Below, piece after piece: positions 44,539-61,860 of a stretch of 64,000 bases of DNA. The stretch's first letter is position 1. Each line of letters starts with the position of its first letter. The translations under genes were made by a program, and so were the position numbers. Source of the DNA: Nostoc sp. CENA543 (GTDB taxonomy: Bacteria; Cyanobacteriota; Cyanobacteriia; Cyanobacteriales; Nostocaceae). Below the pieces are notes generated by a model. That model did no database searches and was not told the DNA's origin. It saw only the letters and a list, made by a program, of their open reading frames with translations. The DNA lies in contig NZ_CP023278.1 of assembly GCF_002896875.1 (NCBI RefSeq), positions 2,108,001 through 2,172,000 of the forward strand, written 5' to 3'.

Positions 44539-45306
44539 ATGGTGAGGAATAAACTAGAAACTACCCCAATGCGTCGTCAACCGCAGCAAAAACGCTCTCA
44601 AGAACGCGTCGAGAAGATTTTGCAAGCAGCCGCAGAAGTGTTTGTAGAGGTGGGATATGAAGCTGCAACTACTCATATGATTGCAGCGAGGGCAAAGACG
44701 GCTGTTGGTTCTCTATATCAGTTTTTCCCTGATAAATTGGCAATTTTTCATGCTTTAGAAGCGCGTCACATGGAACAGGTGACAAAGATTAATACGGAAA
44801 TGATGCAGTCAGCAGACAAGCAAAAGCCACTATCAGAGTTTATTGAACGTATGGTGAATACCTACGCAGAATACTTTGACAATCCCATGTCCCGTATTGT
44901 GTACATCCAGTATTTTGTTGCGCCGGGGATGTTTCAGCTATTTGACGAAACTTTTAATCAGCAGTTAATTCAACAACTTGCAGCTTTTTTTCGTGAGTGG
45001 AATCCTGAGTTAGCCGTCGAAAAAAGCGAATTTTTAGCTGAGACGGTTCACATTTGCTACAACGCTTTACTGCTCAATGCTTTACGTCAAGATAAACACG
45101 AAAGACAAGCTCGTTATGCTGAAATTAAGGCTTTATTAGTCGCATATTTGACACCGCACGCACAACCAACAGCGACACAGGTAATGAAAGTAATGATATG
45201 TCCGTACTGCCATTCATCCAGGTTATCGAAAAATGGGCATCGTCACGGGAAGCAACGCTATCTCTGCAAGGACTGTGGTAAACAGTTTTTGGAAAGAGGT
45301 AATTAG
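44539..45306 (+). CDS. TetR-family regulator with C-terminal transposase-like zinc ribbon
   Basis: Residues about 18-65 form a TetR helix-turn-helix (KILQAAAEVFVEVGYEAATT, then AVGSLYQFFPDK), followed by a helical ligand domain to about 210. The last 36 residues are a zinc ribbon with C221, C224, C243 and C246 in the pattern CPYC...GKQRYLCKDCGKQF, the N-terminal ribbon of IS1-type transposases (InsA). There is no other transposase sequence downstream. The fusion could come from an old IS insertion, or be a second DNA-binding module. The likely target is the divergent Rieske gene. Confidence 0.88.
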   Translation: MVRNKLETTPMRRQPQQKRSQERVEKILQAAAEVFVEVGYEAATTHMIAARAKTAVGSLYQFFPDKLAIFHALEARHMEQVTKINTEMMQSADKQKPLSEFIERMVNTYAEYFDNPMSRIVYIQYFVAPGMFQLFDETFNQQLIQQLAAFFREWNPELAVEKSEFLAETVHICYNALLLNALRQDKHERQARYAEIKALLVAYLTPHAQPTATQVMKVMICPYCHSSRLSKNGHRHGKQRYLCKDCGKQFLERGN

Positions 45307-45484: not shown

Positions 45485-47716
45485 ATGACAGAAGTTACGC
45501 CACATCCAGAGTGTCCATTTTCACATAAAACTTTTGAACTGCTAAGAAATTTTAAAAATAGTTCAAGTAAAAATTTTTATTTAACACATGAAGAAGAATT
45601 TAAAGAATATATTGAGAAACCTCTTTATCAAATTTATATTCATGTACTTGCTCAATTGCCACTACAAATAATAGAAAGACTGAATATAAATCACACTATA
45701 GAAAAATACTATACTCATGGCTACATAGGATATCAACTAATATCCAAAAAACAATTGTGTAAATTCAATGATGTTTACTTGTTTATAGATATTAGCCAAT
45801 ATAATCTATTTTTCGGATTGATAATATATGAAAATAGTGATGCTAGAAAAAATTTTATAAAAAATATTCAGGATAAAAAAATTAAGGAATTAGTTCTCCA
45901 ACATTTTCACCCCATAGATGATTTAAACTTGCTCTCTAAATCAACTACTAAAATTAGTAAAGAAAATCGTTTATCTGATTGGCTTGGTGCAGTAGGTTGG
46001 CTAAAAAGTGCTACCAAGAATATTCAAGCTAGCAAGCATTTAACACCAGAAAAAGTATTATCTTTTTCTTCATTAGAAATAATTGAACATATAAGAGAAA
46101 CATTGGAAATGGTGTTTATCTTATTTTTGGTTGCAACTGAAGATAATCCTATTCAACAACTTAAAAGATACATCTTAAAAGAAGATTCGATCATGGCTAA
46201 TCATGATTTCAATCTAGGGTTAAAACTCTATAACAAATCTGCATATACAGATGCTATTATAGCATTCGGTTTTGCCATACAAAAAGCTCCAAATTTAGCA
46301 GATGCTTATACATATCAAGGGAAATCAAAAGCAAAGTTAGGAGATATTAACGGCGCGATATTAGACTATAATCAATTACTACTCATAAACCCTAAAAATG
46401 CTGACGCTTATTATAGTAGAGGACATTTTTATTACAACTTAGATGATTATGATAAAGCCATTCTTGATTATAGCCAAGCAATATCGATAAATACTAACTA
46501 TTCTCTTGCTTATTATCACCGAGGATGTGCATATTTAGAATTCAGTGCAAAACTCAAAGCGGTAGCATTAGAAATTTATGAATTTGTAGCACAGTCTTCT
46601 GGTTCACTATTTTCAGTATTTGGAATTAAGATAATACCTCTAATTGTTGTATTTCAAAAATGTGATGCTACACAAAAAGTAATTGAAGATTTACGAATAG
46701 CAATAAATTTATTTGAGAAGGAAAATGATGTGGAAAATTATGAAGAAGCGCAGGGTCGTCTCAATACTGTTCATCCAGGCTATTCAGAACCAGAATTTAC
46801 GGTAATTTACCAAGATATTTTGTCTAAAAAACTACAGATATCTGAAAATCTCCTCCGCCGTTATCATTTGGCTCTCAAAACAAGAAAATTTGTCATTCTG
46901 TCTGGAATCAGTGGAACAGGTAAAACTTGGTTAACTCAAGCATATGCTGAGGCTATTGGGGCTAAATATGATATAGTTCCTGTCGCTCCGAATTGGACTA
47001 CTAATGAAGACTTAATAGGATATTTAAATCCTATAAATAGACAATATCACCATACAAAATTTAGTAATTTTTTAGAAGAAGCAAATGAAGAATATGAGAA
47101 AGCTAAAGCTAACAGACACACACCTAGACCTTATCATTTAGTTTTAGATGAAATGAACCTAGCACGAGTAGAGTATTATTTTGCAAAATTTCTCTCAGTC
47201 ATGGAGGTACGTATACGTAAGGGAGAAGCAGAAATTGAACTTGCACCTAATAAAAAGGTATTATTACCTCCTAACTTTTATTTTATTGGCACAGTTAATG
47301 TAGATGAAACTACTCATAGCTTTGCTGATAAAATTTATGACCGAGCGCAAATGATTGAACTTGAGATTTATCGAGATGATTTAGAAAAGTATTTGATTGA
47401 CGTGGATTATCGAGATATTTTGATGTAAATTTGGGATAATATACACGAAGTTGCGCCTTTTGCTTATCGAACTATTGACGAAATTAAGACCTATGTAAAA
47501 GAGGCAGCAGTATTAGGCGTATCTAAGGAAGAAGCTTTAGACGAACAGTTGTTACAGAAGATACTACCAAAAATAAAAGGTGCAGATGACAGAGTAGAAA
47601 AAGCACTTAAAGCATTTGTGAAAACTGCTGAAGAAAATAAGTTTAATCTCAGCCTTGCTAAAGCTAATAAAATGCTTGCCACATTTGAACAATATGGATT
47701 TACATCATACTTCTAA
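45485..47716 (+). pseudogene. McrB-like AAA protein with TPR repeats; in-frame TAA splits last 95 codons
   Basis: Codons 1-647 are open, TAA stands at 47426-47428, and the same frame continues for 95 codons to TAA 47714-47716. Layout: N-terminal domain (about 1-230, faintly like DUF2461), TPR repeats (about 240-355), then an McrB-type GTPase/AAA motor with Walker A GISGTGKT (474-481), Walker B LVLDEMNLARVEYYF (D555-E556) and GTVNVDETTHSFADKIYDRA (sensor region). The part after the stop (IWDNIHEVAPFAYR...) completes the motor's helical lid. The DNA is more AT-rich than its neighbours, a sign of transfer. It may be inactive, read through, or a sequencing artefact. Known McrB partners sense modified DNA and drive a nuclease. 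Confidence 0.85.
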
Positions 47717-49280
47717 ACTTGTTTTTCTCAACCATGACGGTAAAAAGATAAAAGCTCCTTTAGAATGGCAACCAGCTTATTTAGAAGTTCTCATACCTTT
47801 AGAAAATCGGCGAGAGGTGCAGGTTTACTTACAAGGACAAAAACTCCCATTGTATCTAAGGGAATTAGCTGGACAAGACCGAGTATTAGCTGATTGGAAA
47901 CGTTCAAACCCTGGCTATTATCGAATCCAACTTGAGTATCAGAATGATATTGAAGAAAAAGTTATCACAGTTCTGCCTCAGAAAATTAGCAGTGAAGCTT
48001 TTGCTCAAATGTTAGAAGACCTTGATACTCGTCTTCCAACTTCAGTTGCAATAGGCTTACAAAAAGCTGGTGCTTTAGCTGGGTTAAAACTACCACAACT
48101 GCATGAACATACTTTAGCTCAAGAAATGGTTATTTTATGCCGAGCTATTAAAGGTACAGGAAATAGACCAGGATTAACTAAAATTTTATCTAGGCTTGCT
48201 AGTGAACATCATAAAATTTTAAAAACTAATGAAGTCTGGGTAAGAAAAGAGCAAGTTCGTAAACCTTCAAGCAGTAATCTTATTCACGCTTTTTCTAAAG
48301 GTCATAACTTAGATAAAAGTGGGCAACCCATTCGTCTACTTGATACAAGAGTTGAACACAGTGTAGATGTTTACGAAAACCAATTAGTTAAGTTATTTTT
48401 TGAATTAGTAAGTTTAAGACTAAGAAGAGTAAAAAATGCTTGCGAAGCCAATGATAATCATTTGCTTTTAGATGAAGTAACCACTTTAACGTCTGAACTT
48501 AAAAAAGCTAGACATAAAGCTTTGTTTTTCAATAAAGTCAGCCAACTTAAATATTTACCTACTCAAATAACAATGGTTCTACTAAAAGTTCCTGCTTATC
48601 ATGCTGCTTTGGAAGGATACCTGGAATTTATTAGAAGCCCAGCAGTATATTTAGATAATCCCGACGTAAATGCACCTTTGGAGAACCTGGACAAACTTTA
48701 TCAGATTTGGGGAACTTTATGGGTAATTGTCATACTGTTAGAAGTTGCCGAACAAACAGGATATAACATAGAAGAACAACGTTTAGTAGGTAAAGATAAA
48801 ACGGGAATTTTTGTTAGAGTTTTTCCCAACGGTCAACCAGTCCTTGTTTTAACTCATCCACAACATAAAACTATAGTTAAACTAATTCCTGAACGAACAT
48901 ATGGTACAAGTGGCGAACTCTACAGTTCTAGCTACACAAAACGTCCTGACATAGCTTTAGAAATACAGCTTTCAGATGGTTCACATTTCGTTTATATATT
49001 TGATCCCAAATATAAATTTGAAAGCGAAAATCCAGACACTATAAGTAGAGAAAGCAAGCCAACAAGACAGGATATCGACAAAATGCACGCTTACAGCCAT
49101 GCAATTCGAGATAGAGACGGTCGGCAAGTGGTAAATTATGCTGCTATTCTTTACCCTGGTTCTTATATGCCTTACCCCAAAGCAGAAATTGAGGCTTTAC
49201 CAGCTTATCCAGGTAATGAAGCCGAACTTAGAACACATTTGCATCGGATTTTAACTCAAGCTTTGAATTGGCGTTGCTGA
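47694..49280 (+). CDS. DUF2357/McrC-like nuclease protein
   Basis: Taken from ATG 47694, which overlaps the end of the McrB-like gene by 23 bases, this is 528 residues. An N-terminal beta-rich DUF2357 region (about 1-230) is followed by a helical middle and a C-terminal PD-(D/E)XK nuclease with D419 (KRPDIALEI) and D437-x-K439 (FDPKYKF). It should be the DNA-cutting subunit driven by the McrB-type motor. The frame also opens at 47655, but those codons overlap the other gene and lack a good start. AT-rich like its partner. The pair is a likely type IV restriction-like defence unit. Confidence 0.85.
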   Translation: MDLHHTSKLVFLNHDGKKIKAPLEWQPAYLEVLIPLENRREVQVYLQGQKLPLYLRELAGQDRVLADWKRSNPGYYRIQLEYQNDIEEKVITVLPQKISSEAFAQMLEDLDTRLPTSVAIGLQKAGALAGLKLPQLHEHTLAQEMVILCRAIKGTGNRPGLTKILSRLASEHHKILKTNEVWVRKEQVRKPSSSNLIHAFSKGHNLDKSGQPIRLLDTRVEHSVDVYENQLVKLFFELVSLRLRRVKNACEANDNHLLLDEVTTLTSELKKARHKALFFNKVSQLKYLPTQITMVLLKVPAYHAALEGYLEFIRSPAVYLDNPDVNAPLENLDKLYQIWGTLWVIVILLEVAEQTGYNIEEQRLVGKDKTGIFVRVFPNGQPVLVLTHPQHKTIVKLIPERTYGTSGELYSSSYTKRPDIALEIQLSDGSHFVYIFDPKYKFESENPDTISRESKPTRQDIDKMHAYSHAIRDRDGRQVVNYAAILYPGSYMPYPKAEIEALPAYPGNEAELRTHLHRILTQALNWRC

Positions 49281-58319: not shown

Positions 58320-59957
58320 ATTTTTCCCTGATGATGATTCAGTCTTGATTGCAAGACTTTTTTAAAAGATGGTCAGATAAAGTGCTGTTAGATACCTGTA
58401 TATCTTTGTTGTGTATAAGATATACAGAATTGAATCTTTATAAAATTGCTGAACTTGGTTTTGTTGATAGTTTGATGCACACCATAGTTTTATTTAACCC
58501 ATCCAATTGTTTTGGAAATTACATTATGGAATTGTCAAATACTATGGACTTTTTATGGTAGATGCTTATTCCCGCTACTTCGGTTATTTGCTGCTTTTAT
58601 GTGAAGAATTGTCTTATTGGCTGCATACAACCTGTGGTTTGATGATGATGTTAGCTGACTTTTTGTGATTTTAAGTAGATGGATAAAGGGTATTTTTCAC
58701 TGCTGGTCAGCATTCCTGTCTATCATTTAGTGTAGTGTTCATTTTTTCCTCAGTGAGTCGGGGAGATATATAGAATATCTCCAAAGGTTAGATGAGAACT
58801 TGAATTGCAAATCATAGGATGATTTGTGTGGTATGTGGAACGGAGTATAGCGTTTTAACATACCTTACCGGAGAGTTTGCTTGAGAGCTTCCTGATTTAG
58901 CTTGTTTCCCTATCTCAATCACTATCTCAACTCAAAAATTTTGACACTACAGCACAGGTGAATCAGCAAATTGCTGCAAATAGTTCTTGAAAATAGGAGT
59001 GGATTTCACTATTTAGTATTTTTATCTGCTGAATAAATATCTATCTAGCTAACTCAACTCCTAAAAATGAACCGTTTTGCAGAAGCAGCTTCTTTGCTAA
59101 GATTACTCAATCTTGTGCAGTAGATATATGATTATTATTTTGCTAGATATATCTTTTTTTTCGTTTTTGGATTACCGTTAATTTTTGTCTCTAATGGAGG
59201 GTAAATATTGGCGGCAAGCAATTATACCATTATTTATAACAAGAAAATAAACTTATGTTTTGAATATCAGTAAAAAAATATAACTGAGATTGAATATCTT
59301 GAATATTTTGTGGTTGTCAGTTCTATTTATTTAGCAATTCATTACTGTTTTTTTAAGGCTAAATTTTTCTCAATTTTAATTATCAATATTTTATGTATAG
59401 CAAAATACATTTTGGCTTAATATTTTCTATTGCTTAAGATAGATGACTCAGCTTAACTCAACTATATAGCCTCAAAAATGTACTTCTCACGGCAGATGAC
59501 TGGGTGTATTCTTATGTAGTTTAATCTCTGTGAAGAAGAAATTAACATTATTTTGTATCTTCTAAAACTCATCTATGATTGGTGAGATTGCCATTTTTTG
59601 TGATTCGGAAACACACAGAGGTGCTTATCTTTATTATTTGAAATAATATGCTAAATTTATTTTCAGATTTGTTGACTGTCTCTTGAAAAGAGGGAAAATA
59701 AAACTGATTAGCAAACAATCATAATCAATAAATTTAAATTTAAAAATACAAATGGTTTTGCCATATATATTTCAAGCATCATTAAACTTTGGTAAAGATA
59801 TTAAGATTTTTGTGTCATATAAATGACAAGATTGACATATTGGATATACATTTTATTTGTGATATATCTCTTTAAAGATAATTATTTTTTCTTTGTTATC
59901 AAAACTTTAGTAGATTTTAGTGATTTGTTACCGAACACAACTATTGGTGATGAAAAA
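58320..59957. other. 1.6-kb AT-rich region without a convincing gene
   Basis: A 70-codon frame at 58349 (plus) and the 45 codons upstream of the response-regulator start have no family resemblance or ribosome site. The DNA is very AT-rich and contains no repeat that I recognise. It may hold long regulatory leaders for the divergent HetP-like and response regulator genes, or small RNAs. Confidence 0.5.
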
Positions 59958-60560
59958 ATGATACAAGAATCATCGATAACAATCCTTGTAATTGAAGATG
60001 AAACTGATACTCGCAATCTGTTTTTAAATATTTTAGAGTCGGAAGGTTTTGAAACAATTGGTGCTGAAAACGGTGCTGAGGGAATTAAGCAAGCACAAAA
60101 ACATTTACCAGACCTAATTATTTGTGACATTATCATGCCCGACATGGACGGATATGATGTTTTAAACAATCTGCGTCAAGATCCTGTAACAGCCATTATT
60201 CCCTTTATTTTTCTGACTGGTAGTGATGATAAGGCAGCTATCCGTAAGGGAATGGAATTAGGTGCTGACGACTATATTACCAAACCCTCGACGATAGAAG
60301 AGTTACTAAGAGCGATCGCAGTGCGTTTAGAAAAGCAAGCTTTATTTAAATACTTGTATGCGGGTAAATCTCAGCTAAATCCTGAGTCTCTGGTGCTTGA
60401 GCCTGAGTTTGTATTCCCACATTGGTCACAAGTTAAGGTTGTGAAGCAGTTGTCAAGGGGATTTGAGAAGGTGGTTGAAAGAAAAATTCAGGTGAACCAC
60501 GTTGTTTCTCAGGGAAGGGGGCAACGATTAGCTTCATGTTCGGTTTTCGCTGTCGTTTAA
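59958..60560 (+). pseudogene. Response regulator receiver protein, truncated by IS4-family element
   Basis: From ATG 59958 a complete receiver domain is seen: LVIEDETDTR (acidic pocket), LIICDIIMPDMDG with the phospho-acceptor Asp, FLTGSD and ADDYITKPS. After about residue 135 (KQALFKYLY) the frame reads on into the transposase gene region on the other strand (from 60433) and stops at 60560. The native C-terminus, whether a short tail or an output domain, is therefore missing. The receiver may still fold and be phosphorylated. The ORF also extends upstream to 59823, but those codons look non-coding. Confidence 0.8.
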
Positions 60561-61860
60561 CAATACCTAAATCTTGATTGTCAGGAGATGCAAAATATTT
60601 GATAGGGTCAGTTGCCTTACCGTTTTGATGAGCAACATAAAAATGATATAAACCGCGATAAATCATCTCTAAAGAAATGGAATCAAAAGGTAAAGAAAGT
60701 TCGTCGGCTACTGCATCACCTAAATCGACCAACACAGCATAAAATAACCAAGTACCCCAAATCTGCAATTGAACACCGTTCATTGAACCAGTCCATAAAT
60801 AACTTAAACCTAAAAGTCGCTTTACAGTATTAAAAGCATCTTCAATTCTCCATCTTCGGCGATACAAATCAGCCACAACATAGGGTGGTAGAACTGTAGG
60901 GTCAAGCACACTCGTTAAATAAGAATGCCATGTCTTGCCTGAACGAATTTCAACTAGACGTAGAGTAACAAAGGGAGTCTTCTTTGTGCCAGAACCAATA
61001 CGTATCAGACGGTCACGTAAAGAGAAGCTATCTGTAAACACTTGCTGGACATAAATTGCTGCTCCCTTTTTTAACCGGGTTATGAAGTTCACATTCTGAG
61101 CAATTAGTTGTAGCCAGAAATTAAAGTGGTAAAATCCTCTATCTAATAAAAGCAGAGTCTTGGGAGTAACTAAATTTAAAATATCTGCTTCAAACTTTGT
61201 ATCAGCAGTTCTAGGATTCTCACAAAACCATATTTCTACAGGTAGCAGATTTTTTAAATCTATGACTGTGCCAATTTTTCCGGCTAATTTACCTTGAGGT
61301 GCGTCTTTTAAGCTCTCAAGTTTCTGAAACAATGCTTCCAAGATTGAACAGTCTACTATCCATATCTTTTCAAATTTCGTCAAAGTAAATTGAACACTTT
61401 GAGGAATTTTACGTTGAGTTCTTCTTTGCCAAGAAGCTTGTAAATGTGGCAATAAATCTTTAAATACTTTCTCAAATAATTGAGCCGGAAAAGTTAAAAA
61501 CCGTTGAGATATTGCTTGCTGGCTAACCTCAAGGGGTCTACACCACAAAAACCCTTCCCTTGATAACATCCTTGTCAGTTCCGTGACTCCTGCAACATCA
61601 CGCCAGAGTAGAGTTAGCACCGCCGCCACCATTAATGGTAAGTTGAGAATCCTATCTCTTAATCCCAGTTGCCGATAGTAATTTTCTTGGGATGTAATGG
61701 CTGGTGTTAATAATGCCGACAGATGCGATGCTATTACTTCGTCTTCCACCATCGGCCGTTGCTTCTTTTTGGCATGATCTCGATTGATTTTACGGCTGCT
61801 ACTCACGGTTTTTACAATCGCTCAATTACTTGTCTTAACTGAGTTTCACATAATTTTTTC
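60430..61860. mobile_element. IS4-family insertion sequence (ends approximate)
   Basis: A complete transposase gene lies here. I could not fix the terminal repeats: TGTGAAGCAGTTGTCAAG near 60440 and, inverted, TGTGAAACTCAGTTAAGACA near 61850 are only loosely alike, and no clear target duplication was found. The insertion has cut the end of the response regulator. Confidence 0.7.
60433..61806 (-). CDS. IS4-family transposase
   Basis: This 457-residue DDE transposase has D152 (IWIVDCS), D222 (LLLLDRGFY) and E322, the last inside the YREK signature of the IS4 family, Y315-x2-R318-x3-E322-x6-K329 (YRRRWRIEDAFNTVK). It appears full length and without frameshift, so the element may be active. It lies opposite in strand to the response regulator it interrupts. 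Confidence 0.93.
   Translation of the reverse strand: MSSSRKINRDHAKKKQRPMVEDEVIASHLSALLTPAITSQENYYRQLGLRDRILNLPLMVAAVLTLLWRDVAGVTELTRMLSREGFLWCRPLEVSQQAISQRFLTFPAQLFEKVFKDLLPHLQASWQRRTQRKIPQSVQFTLTKFEKIWIVDCSILEALFQKLESLKDAPQGKLAGKIGTVIDLKNLLPVEIWFCENPRTADTKFEADILNLVTPKTLLLLDRGFYHFNFWLQLIAQNVNFITRLKKGAAIYVQQVFTDSFSLRDRLIRIGSGTKKTPFVTLRLVEIRSGKTWHSYLTSVLDPTVLPPYVVADLYRRRWRIEDAFNTVKRLLGLSYLWTGSMNGVQLQIWGTWLFYAVLVDLGDAVADELSLPFDSISLEMIYRGLYHFYVAHQNGKATDPIKYFASPDNQDLGIVKRQRKPNMKLIVAPFPEKQRGSPEFFFQPPSQIPLTTASQP

Follow-up and report, generated by a model that had tools for sequence, protein, structure and literature searches.

Two adjoining genes in the genome of Nostoc sp. CENA543, encoding a McrB-like motor with TPR repeats and a DUF2357 nuclease, raise the question of what such a motor senses and whether this copy of it still works. 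An earlier note on the 64-kb stretch of DNA that we analysed (the window) had read them as a variant McrBC-type defence pair with the TPRs in the sensor slot. The variant motor/nuclease pair with TPRs stood up to our analysis, but the motor proved to be interrupted and the copy is probably not a working one. On balance we favour the reading that a two-gene McrBC-like (Type IV restriction) system has been disabled recently in this genome; its intact relatives would read foreign nucleic acid and probably cut the DNA of invading viruses. The chief interest of the locus is the shuffling YktB-like domain of these intact relatives, and not a TPR sensor.

Organization of the locus

All parts of the pair lie on the + strand. 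The motor ORF (45485-47428, 647 aa) begins with an N-terminal domain of 230 residues (45485..46174), followed by TPR repeats at about residues 240-355 (46202..46549; Pfam TPR_11, E 6e-12, and TPR_1, E 2.5e-11, with the matches at about residues 250-350). A helical link to the motor, delimited from the sequences of relatives (46550..46759), contains an insertion shared with the related loci L009 and L016, and in part with L014. The link leads into a McrB-like AAA+ core of the NxD branch (46760..47425), recognised by Pfam AAA_5 (residues 470-620), by alignment and by its best PDB matches, in which we find a Walker A motif (GISGTGKT, 46904-46927), a Walker B motif (LVLDEMN, 47138-47158) and the signature N-V-D (47297-47305). 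Downstream stands an intact McrC-type nuclease gene (47694..49280, 528 aa), combining DUF2357 with a PD-(D/E)XK domain whose motif residues are PD (48945-48950) and DPK (49002-49010).

Of the parts that had been named for this pair, Pfam bears out the TPRs, the McrB-like core and the DUF2357/PD-(D/E)XK partner, but the break in the motor frame had been missed. The reported 3' overlap of the two genes does not exist as such: 265 bases separate the end of the motor ORF from the nuclease ATG (47694), and an overlap appears solely in the continuing frame (47429-47716), beyond the stop codon. The AT-richness of the pair was correctly seen, its GC content being 33.1% versus 41.2% for the window, and six intact relatives also lie 3-6 points below their own flanks.

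The motor, the nuclease and their pairing

The motor scores above the Pfam cut-off for AAA_5, and its profile finds McrB GTPases as best matches in the PDB (6ut3, E 1.1e-7). Its signature, NVDETT in the window and N-x-D in all aligned kin, is not the canonical NxxD. NxD marks a recognised branch of McrB-like GTPases that includes the CoCoNuTs, and no GTPase of this branch had been characterised when it was described (McrBC census, PMC11090510). The nuclease exceeds its Pfam cut-offs by a wide margin (DUF2357, 62.0 bits vs 23.3; PDDEXK_7, 83.2 bits vs 22.1) and keeps the PD...DPKYK motif in alignment with its relatives; a search of its profile against PDB sequences returned no match.

The nuclease gene lies directly downstream of the motor gene in all 34 relatives with enough DNA to tell (L010-L034 and L036-L044), a count that leaves out L009 and L035, which end too early, and the truncated copy L045. 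Judged by gene order, the pairing is beyond chance, and homologues of the motor do occur with the nuclease.

The NxD signature (NVDETT), which places the motor in the branch that contains the CoCoNuTs, also invites the reading that RNA is the target, or that the pair works through abortive infection, as has been predicted for those relatives (PMC11090510). However, Pfam detects no cold-shock (CSD), YTH, HEPN or Hsp70 domain in the motor or the nuclease, and the AF2 model of the L010 motor, which comprises the N-terminal domain, TPRs, AAA+ core and lid, contains no long coiled coil. With no long coiled coil in the modelled motor and none of these accessory domains in either protein, we do not file the pair as a CoCoNuT. 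Also against an RNA-directed or abortive system are the intact PD-(D/E)XK motif, unlike that of many CoCoNuT McrC proteins (PMC11090510), the EVE domains carried by motor kin, and the fusion of the N-terminal domain to an HNH nuclease. Taken together we consider such a system improbable; RNA is nonetheless a possible target of a McrBC-like pair of this kind.

A premature stop in the motor

Reading of the frame and comparison with relatives place a premature in-frame TAA at 47426..47428. It removes the last 95 residues of the motor, a helical lid, and the frame then runs on from 47429 to 47716, ending in GFTSYF. When the intact motor of L010 is modelled with AF2, the lost segment corresponds to helices 605-698, which form a helical bundle after the AAA+ core. 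Every relative that has both the motor core and the tail carries a sense codon at this position, with one frame throughout. A separate search of the 293 genomes of the order found one TAA in the motor frame of CENA543 and none in the six other motor-bearing genomes; a complete motor including the C-terminal lid is absent from the CENA543 genome.

The closest copy, in Anabaena subtropica of the same genus (L014), has the same tail protein; a single base separates the two copies at the stop codon, and their 285-bp tails contain one further difference. The nuclease has a dN/dS of 0.36 against this copy, which shows purifying selection up to recently. Because of the one-base difference, the unchanged tail protein, the intact nuclease and this dN/dS, the stop is probably a recent event. 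The truncated motor is probably inactive and the CENA543 copy a system that no longer works; against this, the selection on the nuclease suggests that the pair may retain some use. Such a copy would be a defence gene seen in the course of its loss, and a close relative has something else at this site.

The TAA is known from one assembly and is a single-base difference, so that it might be a sequencing or assembly error in a strain whose system is in fact intact. We think this unlikely, as the assembly, 7.2 Mb in 6 contigs, is close to complete (completeness 100) and the stop site shows no frameshift or low-complexity context. Still less likely is that the truncated motor and the nuclease cooperate as they stand, or that the TAA is read through: the preserved nuclease and tail would fit either, but the lid lies in one frame in all relatives that have both parts, and internal deletions mark L016 and L045 as decaying copies as well.

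Between 46901 and 47300 of the window, the motor DNA is 82-89% identical to that of A. subtropica, compared with about 98-100% on both sides, which suggests a recombination tract that spans the motor from Walker A to Walker B.

The N-terminal domain as candidate reader

The first 230 residues align over ten relatives and are modelled with confidence by AF2 (pLDDT 84.9, pTM 0.86). Structure prediction, which the earlier note had proposed for this segment, gives a clear fold: the best solved structures are PDB 2a8e (VIA Z 15.4, rmsd 3.4, 191/210 residues aligned), which we take to be B. subtilis YktB, and the DUF1054 protein 3mqz (VIA Z 12.8), and the next row after these two DUF1054 entries drops to Z 7.2. 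We know of no function for DUF1054, and sharing its fold does not by itself indicate DNA reading. By sequence, residues 1-230 match no Pfam family above its own cut-off, including EVE and DUF3578 (ADAM); DUF1054 itself is matched below its cut-off by one member of the domain (E 0.072). The idea that residues 1-350 are a known McrB specificity domain thus finds no backing in sequence, and our literature search found no paper linking DUF1054 or DUF2461 with McrB.

Other assignments were tried and set aside. DUF2461 is a weak lead, matched below threshold by 5/9 members (best E 0.0012; 11.3 bits in the window and 17.0 bits in L015 vs a cut-off of 22.8), and an hhalign comparison with a single DUF2461 sequence reached a probability of 2%, in matching register. 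Matches of the domain profile to the homing endonuclease I-DmoI (E ~0.005) received no support from the fold search, in which the T4 MotA DNA-binding domain (Z 5.2) fell within the noise of the list. The viral fold library yielded nothing with E below 0.001.

It is the company kept by this domain that points to its role. Present in 31/293 genomes of the order, it is mostly carried by canonical McrB proteins (NTADRS, NxxD) without TPRs, and in 5/5 of those tested the following gene exceeds the cut-off of Pfam McrBC, the McrC component. In L068 it forms one protein with an HNH_2 nuclease (57 bits vs a cut-off of 21), and in L045, itself a truncated copy, it is joined to the motor without TPRs. 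Conversely, proteins of other phyla with the same motor carry EVE modified-base domains in the N-terminal slot (L020, L026) or have no N-terminal domain at all (L027-L044); beside those from Melainabacteria without such a domain, no constant upstream sensor gene was seen by eye. Specificity modules shuffle among proteins in this way, and therefore the N-terminal domain, rather than the TPRs, most likely fills the sensor slot. We regard this YktB-like domain as the likely reader and the TPRs as an additional module. A tree is compatible with a single move of the domain onto the NxD motor. Should the domain act as a reader, it would bring a non-PUA fold to the few modification sensors known and suggest a function for the DUF1054/YktB fold.

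Two further observations concern these N-termini. The HNH_2 fusions (L068, 895-2277, and L075) may represent a new type of restriction enzyme in which reader and nuclease are joined. In L015 (7284-7980), L017 and L073, the N-termini appear to contain a second, unnamed cyanobacterial module that is common to NxD and canonical McrB proteins.

The TPR module

TPRs usually bind peptides or proteins. One may therefore suppose that a phage protein or peptide binds the TPRs and so switches on motor and nuclease, and the architecture of N-terminal domain, TPRs and NxD motor is indeed kept in nine cyanobacterial copies from several genera (the window, L009-L013, L015, L016 and L019), with TPR helices modelled at pLDDT ~95 in the intact relative L010. 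We hold this to be very doubtful, as the N-terminal domain stands on McrB and HNH proteins that have no TPRs, the closest motor kin that lack TPRs begin with other domains, EVE for example, and the truncated L045 dispenses with the repeats between domain and motor. The earlier placing of the TPRs in the sensor slot accordingly finds no support. The conserved module may serve for spacing, for a partner protein or for a second signal. A bolder proposal would join both inputs: YktB/DUF1054-like domains as unrecognised readers, of modified bases or other nucleic-acid features, in cyanobacterial McrBC and HNH enzymes, and a second, protein-binding input that gates the nuclease in the TPR-bearing NxD lineage. 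We advance this conjunction tentatively, expecting it to fail sooner than to hold.

On the reading we prefer, that of a disabled McrBC-like copy, we propose that its intact relatives act as follows. The motor would use its YktB-like domain to recognise something characteristic of foreign nucleic acid, in all likelihood a DNA modification. Its AAA+ core would form a ring that hydrolyses NTP, and the DUF2357 nuclease would bind to this ring and cut. The TPRs between reader and motor would be an added protein-interaction or spacing module.

Distribution and genomic setting

The motor is patchily distributed, occurring in 2/13 genomes of the genus and 7/293 of the order, with intact relatives in Nostoc, Symploca, Kastovskya and Trichocoleus; viral contigs hold distant motors only (27-38% identical). 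A role in defence is supported by a relative from Chloroflexi, since it adjoins DISARM DrmB (E 2.4e-74). No methyltransferase was evident by eye beside the pair in the relatives listed.

In A. subtropica the pair adjoins the same chlH gene as in CENA543. In the nearest genome, G009, the flanking genes are 95-96% identical and three unrelated small genes occupy the site of the pair. The AT-rich island likely arose as genes came and went at this variable site. The three small genes (L078, 1055-2624) have no Pfam or PADLOC match and are another candidate cassette.

Two other features of the surroundings may be mentioned. Upstream of the pair (44539-45306), and also in the G009 copy, lies a TetR-family regulator with a C-terminal zinc ribbon that resembles those of IS1/IS1595 transposases (sub-threshold in Pfam). 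The stretch 59001-60000 of the window is very AT-rich (26.5% GC) and stands beside a transposase-like ORF (60433-61806).

Comparison with known systems

The N-terminal domain has the fold of DUF1054/YktB proteins (PDB 2a8e, 3mqz), but these are stand-alone proteins, and its sequence scores below their Pfam cut-off. Where it precedes an HNH nuclease (L068, L075), the arrangement resembles that of modification-dependent HNH endonucleases such as the EVE-HNH enzyme VcaM4I (PMC7897488), although the domain is of the YktB/DUF1054 fold rather than a PUA-superfamily reader. Among catalogued candidates, PADLOC PDC-M26A is strongly matched by the motor (E 5.8e-52), the best stretch lying in the motor core and not in the N-terminal domain or TPRs, and the nuclease has no PADLOC match.

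With the NxD-branch McrB-like systems, including CoCoNuT (PMC11090510), the pair shares the NxD GTPase motif and the DUF2357 partner. Unlike CoCoNuTs, it has no coiled coils in the L010 motor model and no cold-shock, HEPN or Hsp70 domains, its PD-(D/E)XK motif is complete, and it forms a simple two-gene operon. From McrBC (Type IV; E. coli K-12 McrB/McrC and Thermococcus McrBC, PDB 6ut3) it departs in its NxD instead of NxxD signature, in an N-terminal domain that matches neither DUF3578/ADAM nor EVE, in its TPR insert and, in CENA543, in the truncation of the motor. Shared with McrBC are the order of the genes, an AAA+ McrB-like motor followed by a DUF2357-PD-(D/E)XK nuclease, and a variable N-terminal module.
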